From: Leeuwenhoekiella sp.
GTDB lineage: Bacteria; Bacteroidota; Bacteroidia; Flavobacteriales; Flavobacteriaceae
Length of the DNA: 44,617 bases
NCBI GenBank assembly: GCA_011050015.1
Contig: DRGP01000062.1
Coordinates: forward strand, 1 to 44,617
Direction of reading: 5' to 3'
Numbering within the stretch: position 1 is the stretch's first letter; every line of letters begins with the position of its first letter. The notes beneath the pieces are model-generated. The model was not told where the DNA came from. It worked only from the letters and a program-made list of their open reading frames with translations, and made no database searches. Made by a program: the position numbers and the translations under genes. Below, in pieces: positions 1 to 38,444 of this stretch.

Positions 1-27
1 ATACAGGATGAACACATTTAGGCCTGC
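1..27. repeat. 27-bp direct repeat, copy 1 (at window edge)
   Basis: These 27 bases are identical to 2104-2130 in the same orientation. Identity stops at base 28 (a versus t at 2131); on the left it runs to the window edge, so the true length is unknown. It supplies the stop codon that cuts off grpE. Confidence 0.9.
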
Positions 28-35680: not shown

Positions 35681-38239
35681 TCATTTAATTGATTGAGTTC
35701 TTAACCGCAGCGCATTGGCAATCACCGAAACCGAACTAAAACTCATCGCCAGCGCTGCGATCATGGGCGATAGTAACAGCCCAAAAAATGGATACAGAAT
35801 CCCAGCAGCGATCGGGATGCCCAACGTATTGTAAATAAGCGCAAAAAACAGGTTTTCCTTGATGTTTTTCATCACTTGTTCACTCAGTTGGCGCGCTTTT
35901 ACAATACCGTGCAGATCACCTTCCACCAGTGTTATCGCAGCGCTTTCTATCGCTACATCGGTGCCGGTGCCCATGGCAATGCCCACGTTGCTTTTGGCAA
36001 GTGCCGGAGCGTCGTTGATACCGTCACCGGCCATAGCTACTTTTTTACCTTCTTGTTGCAGGCGCTCTACTTCGGCCAACTTGTCTTGCGGAAGCATTTC
36101 TGCCTTAAAATGAATAATACCCACTGCTGCCGCAACGGCTTCTGCAGTGGCGGCATTGTCACCGGTGAGCATGATCACTTCAATTCCTTTTTCCTGCAAT
36201 CTGCCAATCGCCTTTTTGCTTGTTTCCTTTATTTTATCGCCTATTACCACAAATCCGCAAACCTGACCGTTTATGGCCAAAAAAGAGACTGTTTTGCCCG
36301 TTTTTTGCTCTTTTGAAGCATTTTCCTGTAAATTTTCTGGTATTTTGGCGCTTTCTTGTTTCATCAGAGCAATGTTGCCCAGGGCAATTTTTTTGCCTTC
36401 CACAGTTCCGGTAACTCCTTTTCCGGTAACGGCTTTAAAATCGCTTGTTTCGGCCGCTTGCACCTCTTTTTCTTTGGCATAATCTACCGTGGCCTGGGCC
36501 AGCGGGTGCTCACTTAAGGTATTTAAGGAAACAATATATTTTAAAATTTCGCTTTCTCGGAAACGATCGCCCTGCACCTCAATTTTTTCGACGGAAGGTT
36601 TTCCTTCGGTGATCGTACCTGTTTTATCAATGATCAAGGTGTCTATTTTATCCAATTTCTCCAGCGCTTCTGCATTCTTGATAAGCACGCCATTCTGCGC
36701 GCCTTTGCCCACACCCACCATGACCGACATGGGCGTGGCGAGACCCAGCGCACAGGGACAGGCGATGATGAGCACCGCAATAGCATTGACCAAAGCGTAC
36801 ACATAAACCGGAGATGGCCCCCAAACGGCCCAAATCACAAAGGTCGCCACCGCGATAAGCACCACGATGGGCACAAAATAACCAGAGATTTTGTCAGCCA
36901 GTTTCTGAATGGGCGCCTGGCTGCGGCTGGCTTTGTTCACCATGTCTATAATCTGCGAAAGCAGGGTTTCAGAACCTACTTTTTGGGCTTCCATAAGAAA
37001 GGATTGGTTCCCATTTATGGTTCCACTGCGCACGGCGTCGCCTTCGTTTTTGCTCACGGGAAGTGGTTCACCGGTGATCATCGATTCATCTACCGAGGTG
37101 TTCCCCTTTGTAATCTTTCCGTCTACGGGAATTTTGTCACCCGGTTTTACGCGCAAGATATCACCAGATTCAATTTTATCAATAGCCACTTCCTGTTCCT
37201 CGCCATCCACTACTTTAACGGCTATATTGGGCGCCAATTTCAGCAATGCTTTCACCGAGGCATTCGTTTTACTGTGCGCCCGTGCCTCAAGCACTTGCCC
37301 CATCAGGACAAGGGTTAAAATCACAGTAGCCGACTCAAAATAGACATGTACATTACCGGATTCGGTCTTGAACTGGGGTGGAAAGAAATCAGGAAAAAAC
37401 AGTGCAAAAACGCTAAAAATCCATGCCACACCCGCACCGATCCCTATAAGCGTAAACATATTGAGATTCCAGGTTTTAATACTGCGGTACGCCCGTTCAA
37501 AAAACATCCATGCGGCGTAAAAAACCACGGGAATTGACAACGCCAGTTGCACCCAGTTCCAAGAATTTACCGATATCAAATCATACAACGGATTGTTGCT
37601 GATCATATCACTCATTGCGATCAAAAAAACAGGAAGTGTAAAACCCAGCGCTATCCAGAATTTTCTCAGTAGTTTTTTATAGGTTTTTTCTTCCGCGCTC
37701 AGATCAGGTGCTTTGGGGACAAGGTCCATTCCGCAAATGGGGCAGTCGCCGGGCTCGTCTTTAACCACTTCGGGATGCATGGGGCAAGTGTATTTTCCCC
37801 CGGAACTGCTGCCAGCAACAGATTTCTCTTCTACCAAATCCATTCCGCAGACGGGGCAATCGCCGGGCTGGTCGTAGGTTTTGTCGCCCTCACAGTGCAT
37901 GGGGCAATAGAATACCGCCACAGATCCCCCCTGCCCTACTTCGACAGGCTCAGCACGTCGCCGAAGGGGGAGTTTATCATCAGACTTATCACGCGCTGTG
38001 CTCCTCCCCTTGGGGGAGGCCTGGAGGGGGTTTTCATGTATGGAATATCCGCCGCCATTTTTCTGCAAAGCCTGCTGAAAAGTATTCAGGGGAATATGCT
38101 TGTCCATAGTAATTACCGCTTCTTCCGCTTCTAGATTTACCAAAACCTCTTTCACGCCTTCTACCTCAGTCAGCGTTTTTTCAACATGACCGCGGCAGCC
38201 CTGGCAGCTCATTCCGTGTATATGATATGTATGTTTCAT
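35681..38239 (-). CDS. copA: Cu+-exporting P1B-type ATPase with repeat insertion near the N-terminus
   Basis: An 852-residue copper-transporting P-type ATPase that pumps Cu+ out of the cytoplasm. An HMA domain with 'MSCQGC' (9-14) is followed by two heavy-metal-binding modules ('[12 protein letters not shown]...CPVCGM' at about 109-132 and '[10 protein letters not shown]...CPICGM' at 149-170). The catalytic core follows: 'TGE' (388-390), membrane 'CPC' (493-495), phosphorylation 'DKTGT' (537-541), 'HP' (577-578), 'LTGDN' and '[11 protein letters not shown]'. Residues about 71-104 are low-complexity and basic (with '[20 protein letters not shown]'). They are encoded by an insertion resembling the intergenic repeats just upstream; the frame stays open through it. 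Confidence 0.93.
37925..38030. repeat. Palindromic repeat inserted in the copA coding sequence
   Basis: About 106 bases, inside copA between its HMA and first CPxCGM module. It contains a 7-bp hairpin with a 3-base loop (38003-38009 with 38013-38019, CCTCCCC/GGGGAGG), C- and G-runs at both ends, and a 24-base segment (37939-37962) that matches 38421-38444 at 22 positions in the same orientation. Confidence 0.7.
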
Positions 38240-38271: not shown

Positions 38272-38351
38272 CTTCTCGATACACGCTCCTGCCGTCGCGC
38301 ACTCGAAGTGACTTGGAGTGTCACGATTTTTCATCGGGATGTATCGAGAAG
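38272..38351. repeat. Intergenic palindromic element with 12-bp perfect inverted arms
   Basis: In the 258-base gap between copA and the permease gene, 38272-38283 (CTTCTCGATACA) and 38340-38351 (TGTATCGAGAAG) are exact inverted copies, with further partial symmetry between (ACTCGAAGTGA). It looks like a small non-coding repeat of the kind scattered in Flavobacteriia genomes. Confidence 0.7.
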
Positions 38352-38420
38352 CATTGTTCTCTGAAAAACCCAAATTCCATCTTAAACCTACAAGGAGTTC
38401 TTCAATCTTCAAGTAACACA

Positions 38421-38444
38421 CTTCGACAAGCTCAGCACATCGCC
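38421..38444. repeat. Second copy of the repeat segment found inside copA
   Basis: The 24 bases match 37939-37962 at 22 positions, differing at the tenth (A/G) and twentieth (A/G) bases. The rest of the copA insertion is not repeated here. The copy is non-coding. Confidence 0.75.

Follow-up and report, generated by a model that had tools for sequence, protein, structure and literature searches.

The window, a stretch of 44,617 nucleotides from Leeuwenhoekiella sp., belongs to a genome assembly of 3.69 Mb in 261 contigs that is 82% complete. Four genomes of the same genus (G411, G409, G407 and G410) have CopA linker peptides identical to those of L. parthenopeia, L. nanhaiensis, L. blandensis and L. 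palythoae, respectively. On its minus strand it carries copA, in whose product Pfam identifies an HMA domain, two HMBD stretches and the E1-E2_ATPase and Hydrolase domains. Between the HMA domain (residues 4–60) and the HMBD stretches lies an insert made of two repeats: a member of a family that we call F1 and, nested in it, a short core resembling a family that we call F4 (the names F1 to F4 were coined in the present analysis). The features are the following.

35681–38239, minus strand: copA, intact frame for a CopA-type copper P-type ATPase of 852 aa (frame and Pfam)
38060–38230, minus strand: HMA domain, residues 4–60 (Pfam PF00403)
37926–38030, minus strand: entire insert of 105 bases, F1 with nested F4-like core, residues 70–105
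38000–38030, minus strand: left terminal repeat of F1, with a 7-bp hairpin inside (38003–38019)
37975–37999, minus strand: F1 spacer, with the two ends on either side (by its position between the mapped ends)
37961–37974, minus strand: right terminal repeat of F1, part 1 (by inspection against other copies)
37937–37960, minus strand: nested F4-like core, 24 bases or 8 codons, residues 94–101
37926–37936, minus strand: right terminal repeat of F1, part 2 (by inspection against other copies)
37712–37795, minus strand: HMBD heavy-metal-binding stretch, the better one of two, residues 149–176 (Pfam PF19335)
38273–38347, plus strand: additional repeat DNA upstream of copA, with sub-blocks at about 38273–38312 and 38316–38347, both matched elsewhere in the genome
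38420–38444, plus strand: non-coding copy of the F4-like core upstream of copA (pattern match; similar stretches at three other genome places)

At the contig start an exact 27-base direct repeat (window 1–27 and 2104–2130) is possibly an assembly-end repeat.

A preliminary description of this DNA had placed a C/G-rich palindromic segment of about 106 bases at 37925–38030, in frame between the HMA domain and the metal-binding modules. The in-frame position is borne out by the intact 852-aa frame and the Pfam matches, and the segment, 105 bases from 37926 to 38030, does have palindromic ends; it consists of two elements, however, and as a whole folds no better than its own shuffles (DNA, 121 bases, z −0.38). 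The left end of F1 reads CCCCnCCnnnCCTCCCCnAAGGGGAGG and contains a perfect 7-bp hairpin at 38003–38019, for which 0.01 matches were expected. Set beside copies from elsewhere the right end is approximately the reverse complement of the left, and in the window it is interrupted by the F4-like core at 37937–37960, the borders of which are uncertain by 1–2 bases. A match of 22 of 24 positions between part of the segment and 38421–38444 had been noticed before; we found 25 bases (37938–37962) again at 38420–38444 with two differences. The core pattern, with two ambiguous positions and up to three mismatches, occurs at two places only in the window, compared with 0.00 expected from 100 shuffles. 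Since the window core lacks one base relative to the F4 pattern of other CopA linkers, its link to F4 is one of resemblance and we call it F4-like.

RNA folding of the window copy (105 bases) gave no excess over shuffles either, with z −0.86. This bears on an explanation in which the palindrome acts within the gene at the RNA or DNA level, serving as an attenuator or as a pause site for translation, with the peptide as a by-product. Among four copies folded, an F3 copy from another species (L160) forms a very stable hairpin with z −7.1 and two further copies (L068, L283) reach z of about −2.3, but the window copy is no more structured than shuffles, and sequences as well as structures vary among species. 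We consider a role of this kind very improbable.

The linker of the window CopA comprises 41 residues compared to a median of 24 (range 21–30) in 159 distinct repeat-free linkers, so that the net gain is about 17 residues instead of the 34 or so first proposed. The window CopA lacks most of the native linker, which is often rich in His, and the insert is therefore not a clean addition. In an AlphaFold model residues 74–108 have a pLDDT <50 and the linker appears as coil, in keeping with the earlier suggestion that it tolerates the insert. The model is weak overall (mean pLDDT 63.6, pTM 0.40, 31 sequences) and many conserved stretches, e.g. 474–527 and 757–819, likewise fall below 50, so the low score of the linker lends mild support.

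F1 is repeated within the window genome. Its left end gave seven matches at up to one mismatch, the copA copy included, and the reversed-pattern control gave none. The six other left ends comprise two in a leucyl-tRNA synthetase (LeuRS) frame, three outside long frames and one on contig C151. A DNA search with 121 bases returned 13 places at E ≤10, itself included, the best other one at 3e-5, and for the region upstream of copA ten other matching genome places were found at E ≤0.01. Searching the genome for the repeat, as the preliminary description had proposed, thus returned the F1 left end at six other places and the 24-base core upstream of copA. Among the same-genus CopA compared, the closest one (L362, 81% identical) has a plain linker with neither of the two repeats. 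Given these genome copies and the repeat-free linker, the data best support the reading of a mobile intergenic repeat that turned into coding sequence in a linker able to tolerate it. What had been missed is that two repeats are nested, that most of the ordinary linker is lost and that several families occupy the same joint elsewhere.

The loop letter of the copA F1 copy is C, as in four of the five other exact left ends of the window genome, compared to one of 19 exact left ends of other genomes (p 0.002, the copies being non-independent). We searched 18 chosen genomes: that of the window, a genus mate, carriers of linker repeats and suspected cases. Matches were present in 12 genomes for F1, 16 for F2, 9 for F3 and 15 for F4, with no control matches for all four families. 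Seven full intergenic F1 elements of 71–99 bases have ends that by inspection are approximate inverted copies of each other. At the mismatch allowed, F1 left ends are confined to the two copA genes of a Psychroflexus genome (G398) and to copA in Bizionia argentinensis (G399). In G189 the F4 pattern has no match outside copA, and G010 has one other F2. G220 has 20 F3 places, and a stretch of 2 kb holds four of these, the copA linker included. Three repeats were also seen in frame in other proteins, whose names rest on reading of the sequence: an F3 palindrome in a CusA-like efflux-pump protein near copA (L058 287–317), F2 within a ketoacid-dehydrogenase-like frame (L264 1501–1520) and F1 within a mutase-like frame (L252 1501–1517).

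We compared 210 CopA N-termini, consisting of the window, 80 named loci (best 80 of 533) and 129 further ones among the matches listed, the latter including the second CopA of the window genome; some genomes occur in both sets. For the named set the ranking followed similarity over the whole of CopA, and its six peptide patterns avoid the insert. At least 176 distinct linker DNAs were obtained. A clear in-frame repeat, assigned by eye and pattern, is present in 15 of 176, a fraction that may favour carriers since the 129 further CopA were ranked by an insert-containing query. Eight of these linkers have F1 (the window, L020 Gelidibacter, L054 Psychroflexus, L056 Bizionia, L068 Formosa, L101, L102 and L131), one has half an F1 (L019), two have F2 (L066, L077), one has F3 (L160) and three have F4 (L064, L099, L124). 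The patterns did not catch the Gelidibacter copy. One more F1-bearing CopA of Psychroflexus (L245), located via the repeat itself, was left out of the count, and two linkers outside the 15 (L067, L156) carry by reading an apparently decayed F2. In the CopA of Winogradskyella thalassocola (L077 3237–3779) we observed three tandem HMA-linker units, 261 bases apart, with an F2 palindrome in each.

The segment had been said to resemble no known part of the family. Most orthologues indeed lack it, but a repeat of the same family is found in seven other distinct CopA linkers and half of one in an eighth. The proposed alignment of orthologues for uniqueness of the segment likewise gave a divided answer: most have no such linker, but 15 of 176 linkers carry repeats. 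The cleanest case of insertion is the difference between L. nanhaiensis and L. parthenopeia (L360/L361), whose CopA proteins are 96.3% identical and of which only one has half an F1 in the linker. In the alignment of this one pair no target-site duplication was seen by eye.

F1 linkers are 26–41 residues long compared to the repeat-free median of 24. Two or more His are found in one of the eight F1 linkers compared to 115 of 159 repeat-free ones (p 0.001, the eight being non-independent), and this shortage of His could affect metal handling. The full genes of carriers that were examined are open frames of 839–1013 codons, among them that of L020 with 840 aa. The second CopA of the window genome carries F4, and its HMA-plus-linker DNA of 309 bases is identical in 8 genomes of two genus codes (L282, L124, L140, L339–L342, L345). 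This identity indicates that copA genes do travel and suggests a recent horizontal spread of the F4-bearing second CopA. From the open frames and the wide occurrence of the identical second CopA, repeat-bearing CopA proteins seem to be functional.

The distribution of repeats within and around copA was analyzed in the window and the 80 named loci (best 80 of 533), which amount to 743 kb with 6.2 kb of linkers. Repeat patterns matched the linkers of 9 of 81 CopA, and 10 more matches lie elsewhere in the loci. Within CopA but outside the called linker there are two pattern matches, which fall in the additional tandem HMA-linker units of L077. An even spread would give 0.17 linker loci compared to the 9 observed (p 5e-14), and comparison of the linker with the rest of CopA, its length taken as 2,500 bases, gave p 1e-12; both values are optimistic because the loci are non-independent (the linker DNA of L056 and that of L060 are identical). 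The CopA linker thus looks like a sink for repeats. As the comparison was made within CopA loci, the term sink is meant in relation to the rest of CopA and the DNA around it.

How often the repeats landed in the linker was approached with CopA trees. When 99 CopA proteins were placed in a quick tree without their linkers, F1 required 9 changes for 9 rows, at least five of them forced by starred branches. For 51 selected CopA rows (8 changes) AU tests rejected a single F1 clade (p 8e-11), each of the F1 junction groups as a clade (p 5e-4 and 1e-3) and F4 as a single clade (p 4e-3); the linkers and the first tree had already been inspected when these groups were named, and linker-only transfer would escape the test. 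F1 is therefore phylogenetically scattered, and one vertically inherited F1 insertion is rejected by the test of the F1 clade. It has to be weighed, however, whether the linker insertion happened once, or very few times, long ago, was kept in some descendants and reached others as copA was transferred and recombined, almost without further landings. All eight F1 linkers share strand and frame, the interiors of four F1 linkers (L020, L054, L056, L245) are alike by inspection, the Psychroflexus and Bizionia argentinensis genomes have no F1 left end outside copA, and the second CopA with its identical DNA in 8 genomes documents that such genes travel. Between L054 and L056, furthermore, synonymous differences amount to 3 of 20.5 sites in the insert compared to 23 of 36 in the HMA domain. 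In view of the shared interior, the lack of further copies in the two genomes and this low synonymous difference, some F1 cases are probably transferred linkers rather than fresh landings. On the other hand four different repeat families in the linker are impossible from one event, the F1 junctions are of two types (HKNPL and GEKP), two orthologues that are 96% identical differ by half an F1, and both the F1 clade and the two junction groups are rejected. We therefore judge a single old insertion, or very few, unlikely. Counting each family and both F1 junction types once, the sequences suggest at least five insertion events.

An explanation by selection was also considered, according to which the insert tunes the HMA-to-ATPase linker through its length, charge or loss of His and hence copper transfer. 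It would agree with the greater length and lower His content of F1 linkers, with the wide spread of the F4-bearing second CopA and with the pair L054–L056, in which the non-synonymous difference is lower in the insert (0.11) than in the HMA domain (0.16). In the other two F1 pairs it is higher in the insert (0.19 compared to 0.03 and 0.20 compared to 0.12 in the HMA domain), so that the non-synonymous comparison, lower in one of three pairs and higher in two, settles nothing about selection. The linker accepts repeats of differing sequence and length, and the F2 copies of L067 and L156 appear decayed. A selected role thus seems improbable to us, and the insert may well be near-neutral for copper transport.

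We consider it highly probable that the window insert as a whole goes back to in-frame insertion of F1 in a CopA linker that acts as a sink for repeats, with the F4-like core nested in it. According to this explanation F1, a short non-autonomous repeat with palindromic ends, would have moved, possibly by transposition, in frame into the unstructured HMA-HMBD linker in this Leeuwenhoekiella lineage. The 24-base F4-like core would then have entered the right end of F1, again in frame, and most of the original linker would have been lost after insertion. The insertion may owe its survival to a length divisible by three, a frame free of stops and the hydrophilic peptide that it encodes, in a linker with little sequence constraint. 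In other Flavobacteriaceae the same linker captured four families, aided presumably by transfer of copA or its linker between species, and this is why it appears as a sink. An assembly error was not accepted as a full explanation although the window genome consists of 261 contigs and is 82% complete, because the same repeats are in frame in the CopA of named isolates.

A possible origin of F1 is indicated by its association with the DUF559 domain. In the window genome a DUF559 domain lies inside the LeuRS frame, with an F1 copy on each side, all in frame (L358 2–2962 on contig C53, minus strand, by Pfam), and RecG of genome G314 shows a similar layout of DUF559 and F1 ends. At about 695–709 of the same LeuRS locus an odd stretch, VSNAMLKQVQHDEKERHSELDSESH, resembles a second repeat family; we take repeats like it to occur in Bacteroidetes. 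Matches to its core were found in 6 of 362 loci, all overlapping the same place, and the stretch was not found to be multi-copy among these 362 loci.

The 18 genomes contain 43 DUF559 matches, 17 of which are in open frames of at least 300 aa. The 15 of these 17 frames on which Pfam was run come from several Flavobacteriaceae and were assigned as follows: LeuRS (5), MetH (3; L305, L307, L308), RecG (3; L318, L319, L359), HemD (2; L306, L313), HisD (1; L309) and a PLP-dependent enzyme (1; L328). The domain is internal in LeuRS, MetH and RecG, N-terminal in HemD and the PLP enzyme and C-terminal in HisD; at the terminal positions read-through or a wrong start is therefore possible. A profile of the F1 left end, constructed from 26 copies, had matches no more than 400 bases away from 9 of 14 DUF559 loci in long frames, compared to none of 16 others (30 of the 43 matches covered), one of the nine, L312, overlapping with training copies. 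The profile gave 16 matches in about 24 kb near DUF559 compared to 3 in about 60 kb far from it, with 0.33 expected from shuffles. When the surroundings of DUF559 genes were scanned strictly for GC hairpins, little was seen in either of the two groups compared.

F3 shows a different association. F3 palindromes lie on both sides of RAYT-like Y1_Tnp matches in G398 (L293, C20:21000–28500; 20.5 bits, below the family cut-off) and in G399 (C42:14676–15337; 31.4 bits), the former within 1 kb upstream of an F1-bearing copA. F1 ends were found near none of the eight Y1_Tnp loci examined. A RAYT (Y1 transposase) might accordingly move F3, and from the association of F1 ends with DUF559 we infer that a DUF559-type nuclease may move F1. 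As F1 ends flank in-frame DUF559 domains, F1 may be a short form of such a DUF559-bearing element. A wider proposal is that selfish elements of Flavobacteriaceae, a DUF559 Vsr-like nuclease between C/G palindromic ends, insert in frame in LeuRS, MetH and RecG and are translated unspliced, that F1 is their non-autonomous short form and that the CopA linker is a sink for F1 and three other families. We put this forward tentatively, with somewhat less than even confidence.

Descriptions of in-frame repeat capture have so far come mainly from Rickettsia and certain genomes rich in REP (PMC10969869, PMC3733652). Rickettsia palindromic elements (RPE; Ogata and others 2000 and 2002, as described in PMC10969869) are presented as mobile palindromic repeats of several families that lie in frame in protein genes, the survivors at tolerated sites. 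The repeats of the CopA linker resemble RPE, as far as these are described there, in being palindromic, of several families, in frame and at a tolerated site. RPE are spread over many genes in that account, whereas here several families return to one CopA linker; the CopA repeats moreover come from a different phylum, and the C/G family F1 is associated with a DUF559 domain. In sequence RPE presumably differ from the CopA-linker repeats. For intragenic REP elements of the GTAG and CGTC families, one study suggests neutrality in flexible linkers, and it reports different REPs at about the same site in recB of two Xanthomonas species (PMC3733652). F3 may be similar to REP/REPtron systems in flanking RAYT-like Y1 transposase matches, the one in G398 being below the cut-off, whereas F1 differs from intragenic REP in being two-ended, about 70–100 bases long and absent near the eight Y1_Tnp loci examined. 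Miniature elements of the MITE type are characterized as short and multi-copy, with terminal inverted repeats and without an enzyme of their own (PMC10969869). F1 agrees with this description, so far as it goes, in all four respects; unlike MITEs its presumed parent bears DUF559 and no standard transposase, and no target-site duplication was noticed by eye in L360/L361.

Our literature search, mostly without subscription papers, recognised nothing on palindromic repeats in CopA linkers nor on in-frame DUF559 in LeuRS, RecG or MetH. In-frame palindromic repeats as such are known already from Rickettsia RPE and intragenic REP; what looks new is their return to one joint and the link to DUF559. 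The interest of the window insert lies in this recurrence, in the nesting of two repeats and in the DUF559 connection. With four families at one joint and a before/after pair of orthologues, selfish DNA as raw material for protein linkers becomes testable, and the link of F1 to DUF559 in LeuRS, MetH and RecG might represent a non-splicing counterpart of intein-borne nucleases.
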